The position numbers and the translations under genes are program-made. Below, piece by piece: positions 6,517-15,752 of a stretch of 64,000 bases of DNA (position 1 is its first letter; each line of letters opens with the position of its first letter). Below the pieces are notes generated by a model. That model was not told the DNA's origin and did no database searches. It worked only from the letters and a program-made list of their open reading frames with translations. This stretch comes from Bdellovibrio sp. BCCA (GTDB lineage: Bacteria; Bdellovibrionota; Bdellovibrionia; Bdellovibrionales; Bdellovibrionaceae), in the NCBI RefSeq assembly GCF_037996825.1, contig NZ_JBBNAC010000001.1, positions 434,001 through 498,000 on the forward strand, in the 5' to 3' direction.

Positions 6517-7098
6517 TCATTTTGAGATTTCAGAAAGCATCTTGCGAACCAAATCAATCGGAAGTCCGACGACATTATCAAAAGGTCCTTCAATACGCTC
6601 GACGAATTTTCCTCCGCCGCCTTGAATTCCGTAAGCGCCGGCTTTGTCCATCGGTTCACCGGTATCAATGTAGGTCCAGATTTCTTCATCCGTCAGATTT
6701 TTGAAATAGATATGCGTGGTCTCAAATTGAGACAGCTCTTTCTGAGTTTCACTATCGATAATGCAAACGGCAGTGATGACTTCATGAAAATGCCCGGACA
6801 AGAGTCGTAAAATGCGATAGGCATCGTCGCGATCCTGAGGTTTTCCAAGCGGCCCCCCGCCAAAGATCACTTCCGTGTCTGCCGCTAGCACCGTGAAAGG
6901 GCCTGTTCTGCTAGACTTTAGTAAGCGAAAAGCTTCTCTGGCTTTACGTCTAGCAATATCTAAAATCTGATCGTTTACATTCAGGTTTTTGTTAGGAATT
7001 TCCGATACTTTAACTGGAACCACGTCAAAGTTAAAACCAGCTTCTTTAAGAAGTGCACGGCGGCGTGGCGATTCTGATGCCAAAACAAGTGGTGTCAT
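6517..7098 (-). CDS. maf: Maf family nucleoside triphosphate pyrophosphatase
   Basis: A 193-residue enzyme of the Maf/HAM1-like group that hydrolyses non-canonical or modified nucleoside triphosphates (dTTP/UTP or m7GTP type). The signature ASESPRRRALL is at residues 7-17. The conserved AADTEVIFGGGPLGKP block and the late DKAGAYGIQGGGGKFVERI block are present. The ATG at 7098 is chosen because the upstream open frame encodes the shadow of the divergent tadC gene and the family always begins LVLAS-SPRR. The two divergent starts are only 28 bases apart. Confidence 0.92.
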   Translation of the reverse strand: MTPLVLASESPRRRALLKEAGFNFDVVPVKVSEIPNKNLNVNDQILDIARRKAREAFRLLKSSRTGPFTVLAADTEVIFGGGPLGKPQDRDDAYRILRLLSGHFHEVITAVCIIDSETQKELSQFETTHIYFKNLTDEEIWTYIDTGEPMDKAGAYGIQGGGGKFVERIEGPFDNVVGLPIDLVRKMLSEISK

Positions 7099-7126
7099 GA
7101 ATGTACTTGAACACAAAGAGGCGAAA

Positions 7127-8035
7127 ATGGGAAGCGCAGAATTAATGCTGATTCTTGGACTGCTACTCGCAGGAGTGGCGGTATTCCTATTCGTAAATTC
7201 TATCTTTGCAAGCAACGCGGACAAGCAACAACTGTCATGGGCGAACAATGATGAGCCTGTGAAATCTAAAAATGCCGTGATCAATTTCTCTCGTCCGTTG
7301 GTGCATCAATTCACTTTGCAACACGCTTTAAGAATTCGCAGTGAAGGTTATCGTAAACGTGTACGCAAATACATTTTAACTTCCGGCCTTTCGCAAGAGT
7401 TGAACGAAGATGAATTCATCGGTTTGCAGCTTCTTTGGGGCGTGATGTTCCCGATCTTCTTGCTCATCATGAACTTCTCTTTGCAGTTGGGACTTCCGAC
7501 GTTGATGGTTCTGGGAATGGGATTGATTGGATTTTATCTTCCACAGATTCACGCTAAAGGTGAAAAGAAACGTCGTGAACTTTCCGTCAGAACAGATCTG
7601 CCGTTCTTTATTGATCTTTTGGCTTTGTCAGTGGAAGCAGGTTTGGATTTCTTCTCTGCGATTCAAAAGATTGTGGATAAAGCGCAAGGCACGGACAGTG
7701 TCTTGGCGGATGAGTTGGGAACCGTTTTAAAAGATATCAAAATCGGTGCTTCTAAAGCGCAAGCTTTAAAAGACATGGCAGAGCGTTTGGATATGAACGA
7801 GATGACGAGCTTTGTGGCCGTGCTCGTTGATGCGGAAGCGACAGGTGCGAGTATTTCGCAAGTGTTGAAAGATCAATCCGTGCAAATGCGTTTGGAAAGA
7901 TTCGTGCGAGCGGAAAAGGCCGGTGCGAAAGCATCGCAAACAATTTTAATTCCGTTGATGATTTTTATTTTACCGGCGGTTTTTATTATCGTGTTTGGAC
8001 CGGTGGCCGTGTCCTTCATGTATGGGAAAAAGTAA
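7127..8035 (+). CDS. tadC: Tad pilus inner-membrane protein TadC-like (T2SSF domain)
   Basis: A 302-residue inner-membrane protein with a TadC layout: TM near residues 6-28, two TMs at about 102-140, then the type II secretion F domain (LPFFIDLLALSVEAGLDF onwards) and a last TM (IPLMIFILPAVFIIVF). TadC and its partner TadB form the membrane platform of Tad/Flp pili. The ATG at 7127 is preceded by AAAGAGG; the longer frame upstream overlaps maf. No tadB, tadA ATPase or pilin gene is in the window, so the rest of the pilus genes must be elsewhere. Its operon partners are DUF192 and FHA genes, with a TAATG overlap to the next gene. Confidence 0.85.
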   Translation: MGSAELMLILGLLLAGVAVFLFVNSIFASNADKQQLSWANNDEPVKSKNAVINFSRPLVHQFTLQHALRIRSEGYRKRVRKYILTSGLSQELNEDEFIGLQLLWGVMFPIFLLIMNFSLQLGLPTLMVLGMGLIGFYLPQIHAKGEKKRRELSVRTDLPFFIDLLALSVEAGLDFFSAIQKIVDKAQGTDSVLADELGTVLKDIKIGASKAQALKDMAERLDMNEMTSFVAVLVDAEATGASISQVLKDQSVQMRLERFVRAEKAGAKASQTILIPLMIFILPAVFIIVFGPVAVSFMYGKK

Positions 8036-8382
8036 TGACAGCATTGATGAGTAAAACAACAAATCAAACTTTGGTACCGCAGTTGGAAGTGGCAAAAACT
8101 TTCTGGACTCGCGGCAAAGGTTTATTGGGAAGAGAGTCTCTTGCCAGTAACGAGGCGTTGTGGATTCACCATTGCAATAGCATTCATACGTTCTTTATGA
8201 AATTTCCAATTGATTGTGTGTTTGTAGATAAAAACCTCAAGGTGAAAGCCGTTTACCAAGACGTGCGCCCTTGGCGATTGGTTCTTCCGGTGTGGGGAGC
8301 AGCTTCCGTGATTGAAATGTCTTCTGGATCGGTCAGCAGATTGAATGTCAGCGTAGGAGATCAACTTTATGTGGGCGCTTAG
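8035..8382 (+). CDS. DUF192 family protein
   Basis: A 115-residue protein of the DUF192 family. The diagnostic features are TRGKGLLGRESL near residue 25, the WIHHCNSIHTFFMKFPIDCVFVD-type core (residues about 43-65, with the conserved His, Thr-Phe-x-Met and Asp), and the final VIEMSSGSVSRLNVSVGDQL. Family members are usually secreted, but here no signal peptide is visible, so it may act in the cytoplasm. Function is unknown. It overlaps tadC by one base and the following FHA gene by 14 bases, so it belongs to the same translationally coupled operon. Confidence 0.85.
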   Translation: MTALMSKTTNQTLVPQLEVAKTFWTRGKGLLGRESLASNEALWIHHCNSIHTFFMKFPIDCVFVDKNLKVKAVYQDVRPWRLVLPVWGAASVIEMSSGSVSRLNVSVGDQLYVGA

Positions 8383-10039
8383 AATTTTGACAGGCCCGCA
8401 AGCGGGAACTATCATCGAACTGAAAATGGGCAAGAACATCATCGGTCGTGCCCCTCAGTGCGATATTAAATTGCTCAGTCCCGGTGTTTCCAAAGAGCAC
8501 ACCGAGGTCGCGATCTTTAAAGAAAAAATTGTGATCACGGATTTAAAATCCAGCAACGGCACATACCTCAATGGTATTCGCATTCAAAACGGCATTATGC
8601 GTTTGGGTGACAAGCTAGGAATTCACGACGTTCTTGTCGATGTGATTCCAGCTCCGGAGGCACGTCAGCAAGCTCCGCGTGCAGGAACAAGCACGGGAGT
8701 TCCAGCACCGATGCCTTACTATGGCGGAGCAGCTCCGCAAATGCCACAACAAATGCCGATGGGCATGCCTCAACATCAGGGGATGCCGCAAGGAATGCCA
8801 CAACCGATGGCCGGTGGTATGGCGGGAGCCGCGGCTCCAACACCAGCACCCGCATATCAACAAGGTGGCTTCAAAGGTTTGATGGACAAGGCCCATGATT
8901 ATTTAGATCGAGTGGCTCTGCCGGGAGTGTACAAGCTTCCACAATTCATGGAACTTAAAATGGTTCTTTTGGGTTTTGTGGTGCTCTTTATTTTCGCAAC
9001 AACATTATTGTCGATGATTCCCATGGTGCAAATCACCCGAGCGAGTATCATCAATGAAAGTAAACGTCGTGCGGCTTCGATTGCAAGAACCGTAGCGACC
9101 ATCAACCAAGCGGCTCTTCTGCAAAACAGTTATTCGTCACTAAGCACGAATGCGGCGGAAGCAGAAGATGGTGTGAAGCAAGTTTTGATCGTGCAACAAT
9201 CTGACGGGATGATTTTAGCTCCGGCATCACGCGCGGGAACGACTCCGGATCTTCCGTTTGTGCATTCAGCCCGCAGAGAAATGCGTCCGCAATCTGTCGA
9301 GGTGGATTCATCCACGATTGGGGCTAGTTTCCCGATTGGTCTTTTTGATCCGAACACGGGTGAACAATCCGTGAAGGCGCATGCGATTGTTTTGTATGAC
9401 ATCGGAAGCCTGGCCTTCGATGATGGTCGCGCGATCAGTTTGTTCATGCAAACGTTGGTCATCGCCTCTTTGATTGGTCTTTTGATTTACTTCTTTATGT
9501 ATAAGCTTATTGAGTATCCGATTGTCACTCTCAATGCGCAGTTAGATGCAGCGATGAGAGAAAAGAAAGACAATACGGAAGTGAACTTTATGTTCCCGCC
9601 GCTGCAAGCTTTGATCGGTAACATCAACAGTCTTCTGACTCGTTATATTAACGGTGAAACGGACAGTGGTGGACCTGGTGCGAGCGGATTTGTGAATAAA
9701 GACGGTGAAGCTGAAAATCTGGTTCAGATCGTGGGCTTCCCTTGTATTACGATTTCTCGCGAAGGTCGTATTATTGCGTGCAATGCTGCATTTAGCTCGG
9801 TGGCGCGCACGGATATGACACAGCTTCAAGGTCAACTTTTCAAAGCTATTCCCGACGTGGCGTTACAACAAAACATCGAAGGGCTTTTGGTAAAGACTCG
9901 CGAAAACCCTCGCGCGATTCATACGGATCAGCTCGAGTTCAGTGGACATTTGTGCATTTTAAGCTGTCAGGCTTTTTCATCAGGACAAGAAGTGGATTAT
10001 TTTATCGTGACAGTGTCGCCAGTTGAGGGAGGCTCGTAA
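8369..10039 (+). CDS. Membrane FHA protein with periplasmic loop and PAS-like C-terminus
   Basis: A 556-residue protein. Residues 20-92 form a complete FHA phosphothreonine-binding domain: GR at 26-27, SKEH at 41-44 and SSNGTYLNG at 61-69. Residues 94-168 are a low-complexity Pro/Gln/Met/Gly linker. TM1 is at about 197-219, an extracytoplasmic region covers 220-355, and TM2 is 356-378. After a HAMP-like helix, residues 450-555 look like a PAS fold (CITISREGRIIACNAAF). The FHA and PAS parts face the cytoplasm. It could read a phosphoprotein and a signal at the membrane and relay them to the Tad machine; this is inference. AGGAG precedes the ATG. Confidence 0.85.
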   Translation: MWALRILTGPQAGTIIELKMGKNIIGRAPQCDIKLLSPGVSKEHTEVAIFKEKIVITDLKSSNGTYLNGIRIQNGIMRLGDKLGIHDVLVDVIPAPEARQQAPRAGTSTGVPAPMPYYGGAAPQMPQQMPMGMPQHQGMPQGMPQPMAGGMAGAAAPTPAPAYQQGGFKGLMDKAHDYLDRVALPGVYKLPQFMELKMVLLGFVVLFIFATTLLSMIPMVQITRASIINESKRRAASIARTVATINQAALLQNSYSSLSTNAAEAEDGVKQVLIVQQSDGMILAPASRAGTTPDLPFVHSARREMRPQSVEVDSSTIGASFPIGLFDPNTGEQSVKAHAIVLYDIGSLAFDDGRAISLFMQTLVIASLIGLLIYFFMYKLIEYPIVTLNAQLDAAMREKKDNTEVNFMFPPLQALIGNINSLLTRYINGETDSGGPGASGFVNKDGEAENLVQIVGFPCITISREGRIIACNAAFSSVARTDMTQLQGQLFKAIPDVALQQNIEGLLVKTRENPRAIHTDQLEFSGHLCILSCQAFSSGQEVDYFIVTVSPVEGGS

Positions 10040-11226
10040 TGAGTGCGGCTCCGCAAGTGAAGGACGCTTTAAAGTTTGATATCGAAGTCGTGAAAGGCCC
10101 GCATGTGGGTCTGAAGGCGACTTTCTCAAAGGCTTCGGTCTCTATCGGCCGTGGTCCTGAGAATGATATCGTGCTTTCTGGTGATCCACGTGTGAGCCGT
10201 CAACATGCGGAAATCAAACAGCGTGGTCCGACTGAATTTGTGATCGTCAATTTGAGTTCTAAGAACTTTATTTTGGTCAATGGCCAGAACGTTCAATCCG
10301 AAATTTTAAACAACGATTCGGTGATTCAAATTGGTGATACAGAAATGCGTATCCACGTCGAAGTGCCGACTCCTGCAGTGACTCCTGTGTCTCCGCAGAC
10401 AACACCTTCCATGCCGTCGATGACTCCAGGTGGTTTGCAAGGGCTGGGTAATGCCATGCCAATGTCAACGCCGGCGCAGAATTCAAATCCAAATCCGACG
10501 CCAAATTTCCCAAAACCAATGCCGTCGCAAGCACCGGCTTATCAACAACCTCGTCCGATGCCGACGATGCCAAATCCATCCATGCCTCCGGCGCAGCCGA
10601 TGAATTATGGTGGCTATCAACCGCCTCCGGGTCCTCCTCCGGGAATGGCACCGATGGGAGCGGCTAGTGGTGGCGGACTGTTGCAAAATCCGAAAGCGCG
10701 TTTTTACGGTATTGTGGCGATCGTAGGATTGCTAGCGTGGTATGTTTTGTCGTCGCCGTCTTCGAAAAACAATAAAGATCCGAATGCAATTCGTACTTCC
10801 GTGATCACAATGCAAGACGTGGCCGATGCGGAGAAGCGCTCGCAAGAGCTTTTGACGGTGAAAAAAGAAAAATATGATTCTATTCAATATCGTCGTGCTC
10901 AGGAGAACTTTATTAAGGGTTTCCGTGACTTCCAGCAGGGTCAATATGCAAGAGCCCGTGAAGCTTTTCAGGTCGTGCTGAATCTGGACCCTGACAACGA
11001 GCTGGCAAAGCGTTATTATCATTTATCGAAGATTAAGTTTGATGAGCTTGTGAAATTCAACATGATTCAAGGCAACCGTTACAGAGAAAAGAAAAATTGG
11101 AGAATGTGTCAGTCGAATTATTCGAATGTGATGACCATGCTTCAAAATCGCAAAGATGATCCGAGTTATAAAGAAGCAAAACAATTCTATGAAGAGTGTA
11201 CTTTGAATTTGGAGGGTAGATACTAA
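10039..11226 (+). CDS. Membrane FHA protein with extracytoplasmic TPR region
   Basis: A 395-residue protein with an N-terminal FHA domain (GR at 38-39, SRQH at 53-56, NG at 81-82; the usual SSNG is SSKN), a Pro/Met/Gln-rich linker at about 110-210, one TM at 222-238, and a helical TPR-like tail (FRDFQQGQYARAREAFQ, then VLNLDPDNELAKRYY). With one membrane span, FHA is cytoplasmic and the TPR tail should be periplasmic. It starts on the TAATG that ends the previous gene, with a GAGGGAGG ribosome binding site. The same plan is repeated in the next gene, so the two could pair. Confidence 0.85.
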   Translation: MSAAPQVKDALKFDIEVVKGPHVGLKATFSKASVSIGRGPENDIVLSGDPRVSRQHAEIKQRGPTEFVIVNLSSKNFILVNGQNVQSEILNNDSVIQIGDTEMRIHVEVPTPAVTPVSPQTTPSMPSMTPGGLQGLGNAMPMSTPAQNSNPNPTPNFPKPMPSQAPAYQQPRPMPTMPNPSMPPAQPMNYGGYQPPPGPPPGMAPMGAASGGGLLQNPKARFYGIVAIVGLLAWYVLSSPSSKNNKDPNAIRTSVITMQDVADAEKRSQELLTVKKEKYDSIQYRRAQENFIKGFRDFQQGQYARAREAFQVVLNLDPDNELAKRYYHLSKIKFDELVKFNMIQGNRYREKKNWRMCQSNYSNVMTMLQNRKDDPSYKEAKQFYEECTLNLEGRY

Positions 11227-13253
11227 TGGCCCGCCTCCGAGTCCGCCTTCGTGGTAAACCCATCTATGACATCACTCTTTCTGAAGATCGTTCTTATATT
11301 GCCGGTCGTAAGGAAGATTGCGATATCGTTTTGCAACCTGAAAAAGGAATCTCGCGCGAACACTTCAAGGTTTCATTCAATAATGGAGCTTGGAATGTGG
11401 AAGTGGTTTCCCGCTATGGTGAAGTGATCTATAACGGCGAGCAAGTGCAACAGTTCACGCTGGAGCATGGCAGCCAGTTTTCAATTCCACCGTATGAGTT
11501 TGATTATTTAAATACTTCAGACGAAGTTCCTGCTTCAGCGGAAGCTCATGCGGGGTCGTCGAATCTTCCAGCGGTCACTGGTATTCATGCGAGTGACGGC
11601 GAAGCCTTTGATGGCAGTGAAGAAAAAACTGTGATTGGTGTGGCGCCTACAGCGGCTTACATCAAAATCGTTGATGCACAAAATGAAACCAAAGAAATGC
11701 TTCGTCTTGATGCCGGAGATTCTTGGGTTGCAGGCCGTGATCCTTCCTGCCATATTCAAATCCGCGATCAGCGCGTGAGCCGTCGTCAGTTTGAGATTCG
11801 CAGAGCCGGTTCTCAATACATGATTATTGACTTAGGAAGCGTCAACGGAACCCTTTTGAATGGCAATCCGATTTCTTCGACAGACACAACACCGCTAAAA
11901 AGTGGTGATGCGATCAGTGTGCTCACAAATTATTTGTATTTTGAATTGCACGATGCAAGTTTTCAAAGCCGCCTTGAAATGGTGAATGTGCCGCCACCAA
12001 ATCCGTTGGTCCCGATGGGCTCTGATTCAGTGCCCATGGAGTATCAACAGCAATCGCACGAATTGATGGCTTATCAAGGTGGTATGGCGCCAATGCCATA
12101 TCAACCTCAGCAAATGCAATATCCGATGCAGGGAACTCCTGGCCAGATGCCACCTCCTTCCGGAAAATTTGATTTTCAAAAAAACCGTCCTAAAATTATC
12201 ATCGGCGCAGTGGCGTTGCTCGTTGTGGCGTATCTCTTTAGTGGTGGAGAAAAAACGGCTCCTCCAGCCCCGAAGCCAGGAACTGCGGGACCAGGTTCTC
12301 CGCTTGAAGCCTTTAATAAATTAAAGCCAGAGCAGCAGGCGTTGGTTCGTCAGCGTTATAAAGATGCCAAGAATCTTTATATGCAGGGAAAATATCAGTT
12401 GGCACAAGACGAAATCATCAAGATTCAGGAGTTGGTTCCTGATTATGAGGACATTCGCGAGATCGAGCGTCTTTCAAAAGAAGCGATCTTTATTCAAGAG
12501 CAGCAACGCCGCCAAGAGCAGATTGAAAAGGCGAAGTTAGAGACAGAAGAGAAGATTCAAAAACAAACGGCGGAATGCCAAAAGAAAATCAATCCCAACA
12601 TCACAATGTCAGAGATGGAAGATTGTTTAAGTCCGGTCTTGCAGTTCAATCCGGAGCATCCGCGTATTGTCGACTTAAAATCGCAAGTGGAAATCATCAC
12701 CACTCAGCGTGAAGCGAAAGCGGTGGAAAAAGCCGCTTACCAATCGCAGGTCGCGAAAATGCGAGCCCTTTACGATAAGGCTCAGCAAGTGCATAAAAAA
12801 GGCAAACCTTTGGATGCGATTGCCGCTTACGAAAAAGTGATCGAGTCCAGACTGCCAGATCCAAACGGATTTAAAGGCCAGTCACAAAGAAACATTGCTT
12901 CGATTCGTCAGATGATGAATTCAAAAACGGCGAGTTTGCAAGCGGAAGCGGATAAGTTCTATCAAGCACAAAACTTGAAAGGTGCTATCTTGTCTTTAAG
13001 AAAAGCGCGCGTGATGGATCCGACGAATCCGGATTTGCCAGAGAAAATTGAACGCTACATGGTTGAACTTCGTAAGAGCATGATGACGATCTATCAAGAG
13101 GGTATCTTGGAAGAAAGTTTTGGTAACGTCGATGGTGGTGAATCCAAAGCCGGTGCGAAAGACAAGTGGAGAAAGATCCTTGAACTGGATGTTCCAGACG
13201 GTGAGTACTACAAAAAAGCCTACATCAAGTTGAAAAAGTACGGGGCGCTCTAA
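11226..13253 (+). CDS. Membrane protein with two FHA domains and TPR-like tail
   Basis: A 675-residue protein. FHA1 (about 20-95) keeps GR at 27-28 and SREH at 43-46 but lacks a clean SxNG. FHA2 (about 160-240) keeps GR at 170-171 and SVNGT but has SRRQ in place of SRRH, so phosphopeptide affinity may be altered. Between them is a short EEKTVIG stretch (132-138), whose threonine could be a phospho-site. A Met/Gln/Pro linker leads to a TM at 323-339, then a long helical, TPR-like region with a coiled coil (EQQRRQEQIEKAKLETEEKI). It starts at a TAATG overlap with a GGAGG site. The large tail is predicted periplasmic. Confidence 0.85.
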   Translation: MARLRVRLRGKPIYDITLSEDRSYIAGRKEDCDIVLQPEKGISREHFKVSFNNGAWNVEVVSRYGEVIYNGEQVQQFTLEHGSQFSIPPYEFDYLNTSDEVPASAEAHAGSSNLPAVTGIHASDGEAFDGSEEKTVIGVAPTAAYIKIVDAQNETKEMLRLDAGDSWVAGRDPSCHIQIRDQRVSRRQFEIRRAGSQYMIIDLGSVNGTLLNGNPISSTDTTPLKSGDAISVLTNYLYFELHDASFQSRLEMVNVPPPNPLVPMGSDSVPMEYQQQSHELMAYQGGMAPMPYQPQQMQYPMQGTPGQMPPPSGKFDFQKNRPKIIIGAVALLVVAYLFSGGEKTAPPAPKPGTAGPGSPLEAFNKLKPEQQALVRQRYKDAKNLYMQGKYQLAQDEIIKIQELVPDYEDIREIERLSKEAIFIQEQQRRQEQIEKAKLETEEKIQKQTAECQKKINPNITMSEMEDCLSPVLQFNPEHPRIVDLKSQVEIITTQREAKAVEKAAYQSQVAKMRALYDKAQQVHKKGKPLDAIAAYEKVIESRLPDPNGFKGQSQRNIASIRQMMNSKTASLQAEADKFYQAQNLKGAILSLRKARVMDPTNPDLPEKIERYMVELRKSMMTIYQEGILEESFGNVDGGESKAGAKDKWRKILELDVPDGEYYKKAYIKLKKYGAL

Positions 13254-13254
13254 G

Positions 13255-13941
13255 ATGAAATTGCAAGAAAGATCCTACAGCACGAAAATCATTCGCCCTA
13301 AACCTCTGATTCATCAAGAAGATGACGGCTCACTCATCGTCATTGCGACATCTTGGGGGCAGCCTGAGCATGCGCAAAGAGCTTTGGATGAAGTGGTGAA
13401 ATATGTCAGTGCCGCAAAGTCTGACGTGGAAGTGACTTCTCCGTTTGAGTTTTTGACGTGTCTTTCAGATGAAGTAAATTACGTGAGAACAGGAATTCTG
13501 ATCGCCAACGATATTCTTTATCGCGGTGAAAATAAGATGGAATATTTTTCTGGCGTGGAACTTTTGGCTCTCTTTAAAAGAGGCACGCAAGTCGCTTGGG
13601 CCCAAGTGGGAAGTCCTAGTTTATTTATCCAAAGACAAAATCAAAGCCTGCAACCTCTTTCCATAGGTTTAGATCTTTCATCCGAATTGCGAGGCGATGA
13701 AACTTTGCCGCCATTGCCGTCACAGCTTTTAGGTTTAGACCCGACTTGTTACGTGCAGTGTGGTCACACACATGTAGATGAAAATGATCAACTGGTCCTT
13801 CTTGCTAGCACGGCGATTGCTTCTTCTCTTTGGGGAAAAGACCCGAAAGAAACGGAGCTTTCAAAAATCACCAATCGTATGATTCAGGATTCTCCTGAAG
13901 CTCCTTTTTGGTTGGGGCTTGTCGAAATCTCAGACCAATAA
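13255..13941 (+). CDS. PP2C-like protein lacking metal-binding aspartates (putative pseudophosphatase)
   Basis: A 228-residue soluble protein that follows the FHA operon with one base between stop and ATG. By eye, its order of strands follows PP2C phosphatases: an alpha helix with ILIANDILY, then FSGVELLALFKRGTQVAWAQ and VGSPSLFIQR (compare GTTxVAxLI..xxxAxVGDSRxYL), a QPLSIGLDLS stretch, and DQLVLLASTAI at the place of the LLCSDGL motif. Where active PP2Cs have VGD and SDG aspartates this protein has VGS and AST, so catalysis is unlikely. Next to phosphothreonine-reading FHA proteins, a substrate-binding decoy is plausible. The fold call is my inference and needs a structure or profile search. 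Confidence 0.5.
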   Translation: MKLQERSYSTKIIRPKPLIHQEDDGSLIVIATSWGQPEHAQRALDEVVKYVSAAKSDVEVTSPFEFLTCLSDEVNYVRTGILIANDILYRGENKMEYFSGVELLALFKRGTQVAWAQVGSPSLFIQRQNQSLQPLSIGLDLSSELRGDETLPPLPSQLLGLDPTCYVQCGHTHVDENDQLVLLASTAIASSLWGKDPKETELSKITNRMIQDSPEAPFWLGLVEISDQ

Positions 13942-13943
13942 TT

Positions 13944-15752
13944 CTAAAGCTCTTCACTTTGAATCGATTTATAAACTTGAGCGCGAATTCTTGTGTATTC
14001 AGGAAGACTCAATGCCAACTCCGTGCGCGAAGGCGCAAAGACGTTGTCGCGGGACGTATCCCAAATCAAGCCCGCCGCAATATTTGCTCTTTGGATCTGT
14101 TGGTCGAGCATGTAGTTTTTAAAAGAACGCTCAAAGCGTTTTCTTTGGGCTTCTTTTGAAAGCCCACGTTCTTCAGCGCGAACCCAATCGACAAATTCCA
14201 AGAACAGTGGATCACCGCAGTTTTTTAATTGCTCTGTTTCAAGAACACCAGAAAGCAAATAGAAACAAGAATCACTGAGTTTTGCCACTTTACCATTGAG
14301 ATTTTTTTCACCGACGTACTGCCATACGGACACTCTGTTTTTAGTTCCCAGTTGCTTCAGTGTCTCCCAGTCTTTTTGGTTTAAAGCGATTTGCGCCGTC
14401 CAATTAAGAATATCCAAGCTGCGCGGTTGTGCACTCATCAGACGTTTGAGATCTTTTAAAAGCAAAGATTCTTGATCCGTTCTCATCCAGCGAGCAAACG
14501 GAATGCTAAGTTTTGCCGTCCACTCGGAATCCAAAGATGTAAAAGCTGGAAACTGATTTTTATGCATCAAGTTTTGCAACTTTTGGGTCGTCGGTAAAAT
14601 GCTCTCTTGCAGAAGAGGCAGAGGGTTGACTTCAAAGCGATCTACCAATGTGTTGTAAAGGAGAGGCTTTTCGTCGTTGATATAGAGAACATGGCTCGAA
14701 ATCCCGGCCGTGCGCAGCGGGCCCGCTTTTCTCCACAAAGCCCAGCCGGACTCAAGCAGTATAGGGCGATCTTCCGGGCTCGTAGAATTTGGATTTTTTA
14801 ATACGTCCAACAAAGAGTGTGAGGGGAACGAGGAAGTCCCATTTTCCACAATGCTTTCCCCAAGAAGTTCATAAAGAGTGCGGCCGACATCCACAAGGCT
14901 GACATTTTGATCGACTTTCCAGTGAATCGCTTCGTCGCGTTTTTTCTTTTGTGAGGGTTTGATAAATAAAGCCACTTGTGTGTTTTCACCATGCAAGTTC
15001 AAAGGTGAAAGTTCGCGGTAGCGATCGTTGGAAGTATGGCCATTTAAGCCAACCAGAATCACCGTGGTTTGGTCCCAACGATTGGATTGTTTGAGGCTTT
15101 GAAAGAGTTCAAAAAAACTTTCATCAAGCTCATCCATTTGGCTTTCAAAACTGAGGTTGCGAGTTTCGCCGAGATCCGTTGTTGTTTCCGTCGTTGTAAA
15201 AAGAAGATCGGGAACATAGATAACGCTAAAGAAAGCGTCATTTCCCACATCTTGTTTTAACCACTGTAGAAAAGCTTCCGAGTTTTTTTTGAAGGGACGG
15301 AATAAGCTTGCGAAGCTCGGAATGATGTTGTCCTCAAAGAGTTCAAACCCTTGATTGAGTCCTGAACGACGAAATACTGGGGCTCCACCAGAAAAAAAAC
15401 TGGTACGATAGTCCTGCTTTAGCGCTACTTCAGAAACCAATTCCAGTTCCGCTGCGAGTCCAGGTCCAGAGTTGTGTCTTACTTTGTGTTGGTAAGGATA
15501 AAGACCCGTCATTAACGATGACAAGGCGGGTACGGCAAGCGTTGACGGCGTGAAAGCGTGAGTGAAACGTACGGACTCATTGCAAAGCAATTGAAAACCA
15601 GACCTCTCGGATTCCTCCTGACTGCACGTCACATCCGTCATCGTCAGTTCGTCAACTGCGATAACCAGCACGGATTTCCTGTCATTTGTCTTACAGGAGA
15701 TCTGGACTAAGCTCAGTGTTGTGAGGAGAAGAGTTAAAATGATTTTCTGCAT
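13944..15752 (-). CDS. Sulfatase/alkaline-phosphatase-fold lipoprotein, degenerate
   Basis: A 602-residue exported protein. The signal peptide ends at C20 (VQISC, a non-canonical lipobox). Residues 26-40 (SVLVIAVDELTMTD) and 67-92 (FTPSTLAVPALSSLMTGLYP, then YQHKVR) match the start and nucleophile loop of sulfatase-type enzymes, but the nucleophile Cys/Ser-x-Pro-x-Arg is not kept. The usual metal-binding DHG is GLNGH here. It therefore may be inactive, or use a different residue, such as a threonine in STL. The C-terminal 200 residues do not look like a known domain. It converges with the FHA operon, and its end is two bases from that operon's stop. Confidence 0.6.
   Translation of the reverse strand: MQKIILTLLLTTLSLVQISCKTNDRKSVLVIAVDELTMTDVTCSQEESERSGFQLLCNESVRFTHAFTPSTLAVPALSSLMTGLYPYQHKVRHNSGPGLAAELELVSEVALKQDYRTSFFSGGAPVFRRSGLNQGFELFEDNIIPSFASLFRPFKKNSEAFLQWLKQDVGNDAFFSVIYVPDLLFTTTETTTDLGETRNLSFESQMDELDESFFELFQSLKQSNRWDQTTVILVGLNGHTSNDRYRELSPLNLHGENTQVALFIKPSQKKKRDEAIHWKVDQNVSLVDVGRTLYELLGESIVENGTSSFPSHSLLDVLKNPNSTSPEDRPILLESGWALWRKAGPLRTAGISSHVLYINDEKPLLYNTLVDRFEVNPLPLLQESILPTTQKLQNLMHKNQFPAFTSLDSEWTAKLSIPFARWMRTDQESLLLKDLKRLMSAQPRSLDILNWTAQIALNQKDWETLKQLGTKNRVSVWQYVGEKNLNGKVAKLSDSCFYLLSGVLETEQLKNCGDPLFLEFVDWVRAEERGLSKEAQRKRFERSFKNYMLDQQIQRANIAAGLIWDTSRDNVFAPSRTELALSLPEYTRIRAQVYKSIQSEEL

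Follow-up and report, generated by a model that had tools for sequence, protein, structure and literature searches.

The six-gene tadC-FHA operon of Bdellovibrio sp. BCCA: a detached half of the cell's single Tad machine that probably joins TadC to a membrane phosphothreonine-reading module and a predicted pseudophosphatase

Myxococcus has a related, FHA-rich, contact-dependent predation machine, the Kil system, which assembles at prey contact (PMC8460266). In Bdellovibrio bacteriovorus a single operon encodes both Bd0470, the TadC protein of the tight adherence (Tad) machinery, and the FHA protein Bd0474; mutants in either fail both to kill and to round prey, and attachment persists in the Bd0474 mutant (PMC6561027). 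A 2025 study lists this operon as Bd0470-Bd0475, predicts an interaction between Bd0473 and Bd0475 and reports that Bd0474 binds the TPR protein Bd0075 in a two-hybrid assay; Bd0475 is labelled there as hypothetical, and the words "phosphatase" and "PP2C" are absent (PMC12034629). For strain HD100 a Tad operon with Flp1 and Flp2 has been reported, TadV was not found in Bdellovibrio genomes, and the operon Bd0109-Bd0119 is controlled by FliA (PMC5430801). Here we analysed the corresponding six genes of Bdellovibrio sp. BCCA (GTDB Bdellovibrionota; Bdellovibrionia; Bdellovibrionales; Bdellovibrionaceae; assembly GCF_037996825.1) in a 64,000-nucleotide stretch of its genome, referred to below as the window. 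The operon is, on well-supported grounds, a detached half of the only Tad machine of the cell, and we think it probable that it joins TadC to a membrane module that reads phosphothreonine, with the switch and the pseudophosphatase partner proposed below.

The original prediction, made from the letters of the window, described six genes on the + strand linked by overlaps of 1, 14, 1 and 1 bases and then a gap of 1 base. All six open reading frames (ORFs) lie exactly where it placed them, and both the gene overlaps and the conserved gene order bear out a single operon-like unit. The genes and their domains are as follows (aa, amino acids).

7127-8035, + strand: tadC, 302 aa, T2SSF domain at aa 161-290; second inner-membrane platform protein of the Tad machine, orthologue of Bd0470
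8035-8382, + strand: DUF192 protein, 115 aa (Pfam DUF192, 6e-22)
8369-10039, + strand: FHA1, with an FHA domain, a first membrane span (TM1), a predicted extracytoplasmic sensor domain, a second span (TM2) and a PAS-like domain
8369-8653, + strand: FHA domain of FHA1, aa 1-95, with canonical phosphothreonine-binding residues
FHA1, aa ~199-217 and aa ~355-381: TM1 and TM2, from membrane-span prediction
9029-9421, + strand: predicted extracytoplasmic sensor domain of FHA1, aa ~221-351, CitA/DcuS-like fold
9698-10021, + strand: PAS-like C-terminal domain of FHA1, aa ~444-551, from the helix/strand pattern of the model
10039-11226, + strand: FHA2, with an FHA domain at aa 34-99, one span at aa ~220-240 and a TPR-like tail at aa ~292-320; orthologue of Bd0473
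11226-13253, + strand: FHA3, with two FHA domains, one span at aa ~324-342 and a TPR-like tail; orthologue of Bd0474
11295-11486 and 11724-11918, + strand: the two FHA domains of FHA3 (FHA3a and FHA3b)
13255-13941, + strand: gene 6, 228 aa, a predicted PP2C-fold pseudophosphatase that has lost all metal-ligand positions; orthologue of Bd0475

Pfam recognised T2SSF (PF00482) in the tadC product (E 1.3e-15) and FHA in FHA1 (5e-14), FHA2 (3e-17) and FHA3 (2e-30), with traces of TPR in the last two, and membrane-span prediction found none in the DUF192 protein or in the gene 6 product. The proposed topology, with FHA domains inside the cell and TPR tails outside, holds for FHA2 and FHA3, each of which has one predicted span. 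FHA1 is likewise a membrane FHA protein, but the layout proposed for the three needs revision in that FHA1 has two spans and ends in a PAS-like domain, not a TPR tail, and FHA3 carries two FHA domains.

The operon is the same as Bd0470-Bd0475: at one of the loci read (L061), FHA2, FHA3 and gene 6 encode 386, 674 and 228 aa, sizes identical to those published for Bd0473, Bd0474 and Bd0475. Among eight Myxococcota genomes compared, five had a match. Three Myxococcaceae-type genomes (loci L222, L223 and L224) contained Kil cluster 2 (MXAN_4648-4661 type), in which TadC (KilG type) is likewise followed by FHA proteins and an FHA+TPR protein matches FHA3 at 150 bits. However, TadB adjoins TadC in that cluster (and CpaB adjoins TadB in L222), whereas TadB lies elsewhere in the window's genome; the 18-19 kb read there yielded no homologue of DUF192 or PP2C, whereas the window has DUF192 between TadC and FHA1; and the window operon adds a third FHA protein, with a predicted sensor domain. 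The Kil ATPase also has an N-terminal FHA domain, unlike TadZ-TadA of the window's genome, which is composed of CbiA/ParA and T2SSE, with no FHA domain among the 25 matches listed and no match there in the genome FHA search. The PP2C fold and lost active site of gene 6, the CitA-like receptor layout of FHA1, the phylum-wide gene order and the contiguous cluster described below were not found in the papers searched.

The case for a single Tad machine rests on the census of platform proteins. A PF00482 search of the window's genome returned two two-domain PilC/GspF-type proteins, one TadB, one TadC (that of the window operon) and one weak 155-aa protein, so that the window's tadC is the only TadC-type T2SSF gene of the genome. 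The main Tad locus, ~327 kb from the window operon (read as L024 = G000:C1:104000-123999), has TadB at G000:C1:~114 kb together with TadZ-TadA, a secretin, CpaB and two small unclassified membrane-type proteins (~114-120 kb), but no TadC; the gene after TadB encodes an RHS/YD-repeat protein. A TadC-type platform protein, TadB, a TadA-type ATPase, a secretin and CpaB thus occur in one genome. Of 18 other genomes, nearly all repeated the pairing of one TadB with one TadC, a further pair being present in G292, and several had an additional two-domain or weak PF00482 match. In four genomes outside the class of the window (G203, G173, G220 and G158) both halves form one continuous cluster, in the order tadC, DUF192, FHA1, FHA2, FHA3, gene 6, small genes, CpaB, secretin, TadZ-TadA, TadB and YD-repeat protein, interrupted by a few unrelated genes in G158 and G203. 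Because one TadB and one TadC stand at two loci, the main locus lacks TadC and the cluster is contiguous in these four genomes, the window operon is well supported as the detached half of the cell's single Tad machine (type IVb, Kil-like). The contiguous cluster is presumably the older state, the root of the tree being weak.

These observations bear directly on the view, taken by the original prediction, that the operon is a specialised branch apart from a full Tad pilus. No pilin, ATPase or secretin gene lies inside the operon, which is what had suggested it. The single TadB and TadC at two loci, the main locus devoid of TadC and the contiguous clusters run counter to it, as does the report that bd0470 and bd0108-0121 of HD100 belong to the pilus genes that show a joint decrease in host-independent strains (PMC3818213). 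This view was not borne out, and we now give it hardly any credence. The halves are nevertheless probably controlled separately, since a perfect FliA-like site (TAAA-N17-CCGATA) lies upstream of the main Tad locus (L024:17701, - strand) and none as good precedes tadC. Two further observations concern the Tad census. The RHS/YD-repeat gene after TadB (L024:8509-10215) is also found in G203, G173, G220 and G158 and is a conserved companion of the Tad locus. The weak 155-aa T2SSF protein is isolated at L025:10052-10519 (G000:C1:~3.70 Mb), with no T2SSE ATPase match nearby.

Within the same order a search with the gene 6 protein detected it in 133 of 141 genomes, and across the phylum a gene 6 profile matched 242 of 291. 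We then compared 40 loci from the same order (4 of them cut by contig ends), 20 from other orders and classes, and 11 from genomes that scored negative for gene 6. The order tadC-DUF192-FHA1-FHA2-FHA3 was kept in 71/71 loci (40/40, 20/20 and 11/11, respectively), and the 60 loci with gene 6 had the full six-gene order save for contig ends and single exceptions. DUF192 lay between tadC and FHA1 in every inspected locus not cut by a contig end, and the 14-base DUF192/FHA1 overlap (window 8369-8382) was identical in 31 of 38 measurable loci. The exceptions were G220 (L231), where three opposite-strand genes separate tadC from DUF192, the sole such break seen, and L117, where FHA1 is broken. In the 11 gene-6-negative loci gene 6 was absent from 8, very divergent or unrecognised in 2 (both from the window's own family) and present in 1. 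Since these loci still carry the first five genes in order, the conserved core is five genes and gene 6 is its variable member. The arrangement is far beyond chance; the original prediction had named a lack of conservation past one strain as grounds for giving it up, and the order clearly extends much further. With regard to individual loci, the tadC reading frame spans ~450-520 codons, not 300, in several genomes of family f18 (L114, L118, L124, L127 and L128). FHA3 and gene 6 form one ORF at L091:8038-10731 in the draft genome G093, a real fusion or an assembly error; we gave it no weight as evidence of contact between the two proteins, as the FHA3 tail is predicted to lie outside the cell, the gene 6 product lacks a span and the assembly is of draft quality.

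FHA1 stands apart from the other two FHA proteins in its predicted architecture. Its model has a pLDDT (predicted local distance difference test score) of 82.3, the linker being poorly predicted, and the domain between the spans compares well with the sensor domains of CitA (Z 14.5, root-mean-square deviation (rmsd) 3.0, 122 residues) and DcuS (Z 13.8, rmsd 2.9, 120 residues). The PAS_4 match on the C-terminus is weak (E 0.006, below the curated cut-off). As modelled, FHA1 is built like a sensor kinase without the kinase, having a cytoplasmic FHA domain, an extracytoplasmic sensor and a PAS-like domain.

We counted the residues of the phosphothreonine pocket (G-R, S-x-x-H and S-x-N) over 58-60 distant loci. 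G-R-S and S-x-N-G of FHA1 were invariant wherever the sequence was present, and the His was found in all but one locus. All four FHA domains had the pocket Arg and Ser invariant or almost invariant, and the loop Asn was kept in FHA1 and FHA3b, whose predicted phosphothreonine-binding pockets are nearly complete. These counts also bear on a structural reading, in which the FHA proteins are ring or scaffold subunits around the Tad platform that act independently of phosphothreonine, like SctD/YscD of the type III secretion system or GltG of gliding, with the gene 6 product as a chaperone or assembly cap. SctD/YscD and GltG indeed sit in the membrane and carry an FHA-like domain on the cytoplasmic side; all three FHA proteins exceed the cut-off for Yop-YscD_cpl (PF16697), the SctD and GltG models match weakly, PscD and YscD appear in the fold list, and the loop Asn is lacking in FHA3a and in some members of the FHA2 family. 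However, the family scores are far below their cut-offs (28.9 of 86 for SctD TIGR02500 and 28 to 34 of 650 for GltG NF033760), the phosphate-binding Arg and Ser are conserved in all four domains, with FHA1 and FHA3b nearly fully canonical, and in another class a PP2C protein with a two-metal core accompanies the FHA genes. We consider a purely structural role unlikely, though far from negligible. Phosphothreonine reading linked to the Tad platform, as originally proposed, finds support here.

Gene 6 had been called PP2C-like, which proved correct at the level of the fold. Pfam and NCBIfam searches with its product gave no family, and only profile and fold comparisons did so. A profile of 32 homologues matched the PP2C phosphatase tPphA weakly (E 0.0014), and the gene 6 model (pLDDT 94.6) matched tPphA (Foldseek E 4e-13; Z 20.1, rmsd 3.4 over 208 residues) and PppA of the type VI secretion system (T6SS; Foldseek E 2e-11; Z 18.0). 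In other classes of the phylum Pfam PP2C_2 recognised the homologue in the two examples tested, both with conserved motifs, and a profile of the motif-keeping homologues matched tPphA with an E of 5e-23, NED, DGFGG, (S/T)DG and DN being aligned to its metal-binding motifs. The assignment of metal-binding residues in the gene 6 homologues is one that we take from general knowledge of PP2C structures. In the class of the window a metal-ligand Asp was conserved at zero positions (0/43 sequences), the positions being mostly Pro, Thr, Ser, Lys and Arg. All two-metal Asp were kept in 23 of 25 members of f18, a family of the sister class, and the last two metal Asp in 0/7 of family f21. On a tree of the other four proteins the metal-ligand states were clustered (7 changes for six states versus 27.4 in shuffles), as kinship alone would lead one to expect. 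Since the PP2C fold is present while the metal-binding Asp are lost, it is well supported by sequence and model that the product in the window's class is a pseudophosphatase and not an active PPM, a loss of the active site that the original prediction had missed.

Two other readings of gene 6 were weighed against this one. That it remains an active phosphatase using other metal ligands would fit its complete, confidently modelled PP2C fold; with neither Asp nor Glu conserved at any ligand position among the 43 class sequences, we regard this as very improbable. That it is a decaying, functionless remnant, only the five-gene core being of consequence, would fit the loss of all metal ligands, its absence from a branch with an intact core and its very divergent or unrecognised state in two genomes of the window's own family. 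Yet the gene is retained in 133/141 genomes of the order long after the loss of catalysis, N93, E102, G119, G160 and W219 are invariant and T61 and W34-G35 nearly so, it is tightly coupled to FHA3, and its orthologue is predicted to interact with Bd0473 (PMC12034629). A remnant thus seems improbable to us, and a pseudophosphatase that still serves as a partner is the reading we carry forward.

The closest functional analogy is with the threonine phosphorylation pathway of the T6SS (kinase PpkA, phosphatase PppA and Fha1), in which FHA proteins and a PP2C-fold protein are likewise encoded beside a contact-dependent envelope machine; gene 6 also matches PppA in fold. The machine is a different one, however, the window operon has no kinase and the phosphatase active site is lost in the window's class. 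By this analogy the operon most likely represents a module that forms part of the Tad platform and controls it through threonine phosphorylation, with a kinase and targets that we infer. Upon prey sensing, a membrane Ser/Thr kinase would phosphorylate at least one Tad component or FHA tail; the FHA domains would then clamp the platform into an active assembly, and the TPR tails would bind periplasmic partners. In the ancestor PP2C may have reset this phosphothreonine switch. In the window's class the gene 6 product would have given up catalysis and would act as a partner, binding either the FHA proteins or the phosphorylated target of these, so that the reset would have to come about otherwise: by another enzyme, by turnover, or not at all. 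The lost phosphatase active site suggests that the on/off switch of the machine was rebuilt in evolution. More tentatively, as a possibility we rate below an even chance, the Tad pilus may be gated by a membrane phosphothreonine switch that has its own extracytoplasmic receptor, FHA1; in the window's class the eraser enzyme of this switch would have become a pseudophosphatase and retained its binding to the FHA module, making firing or assembly a one-way commitment or leaving it to another means of reset. The anatomy and the single-TadC argument are well supported; the switch mechanism is what we infer.

Several observations weigh against the phosphothreonine switch or the unity of the two halves. 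FHA3a lacks the loop Asn and FHA2 varies at this position, so that both domains perhaps are not phosphothreonine readers. The operon itself contains no kinase gene, and the literature searched reports no Tad component that is phosphorylated. The third-metal Asp (GD to GN or other) is found in 0/38 sequences outside the window's class, homologues with a two-metal core included, so that the latter are at most putative phosphatases. Gene 6 is not required by the machine throughout the phylum, since one branch (8 loci) keeps the five-gene core without it. Finally, no FliA-type site with fewer than two mismatches was found upstream of the window's tadC, so that a promoter of this type is not common to both halves.

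As to the kinase, two Ser/Thr protein kinase genes scored over cut-off in the window's genome, both far from the operon. The PEGA-type kinase at G000:C1:3011992 has relatives in the compared genomes, and the sole kinase found in G173, G183 and G282 is a single one of this kind; it is the best candidate for the proposed writer, and a candidate only. The number of Ser/Thr kinases showed no clear pattern with the phosphatase state in 20 genomes. In G158 a second, minimal Tad-like locus (L234:13165-18223) combines a secretin, a T2SSE ATPase and a two-domain T2SSF protein; its neighbour is a divergent Ser/Thr kinase gene, which might tie the locus directly to a kinase.

For the path by which a predatory bacterium turns prey contact into the firing of an invasion pilus, the operon supplies named parts: a putative receptor with a sensor domain, predicted phosphothreonine readers, a pilus platform and an apparently dead phosphatase. 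As Bd0470 and Bd0474 are already known to be needed for predation, the model is directly testable in the laboratory strain. Within one conserved operon an active site has been lost step by step, which also makes it a clean natural case of the change from enzyme to pseudoenzyme.

PADLOC returned zero matches for all six proteins, so a known defence system is not indicated. Outside the system, the operon has a conserved neighbour on either side.

6517-7284, - strand: maf, divergent from the operon; the listed ORF overlaps tadC
13944-15752: sulfatase-like gene, convergent with the operon

The overlap of maf with tadC arises because the ORF was listed from a TTG further upstream; the Maf match agrees with a later start near 7097. 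Like maf on the opposite side, the sulfatase-like gene keeps its place next to the operon in most loci of the order.

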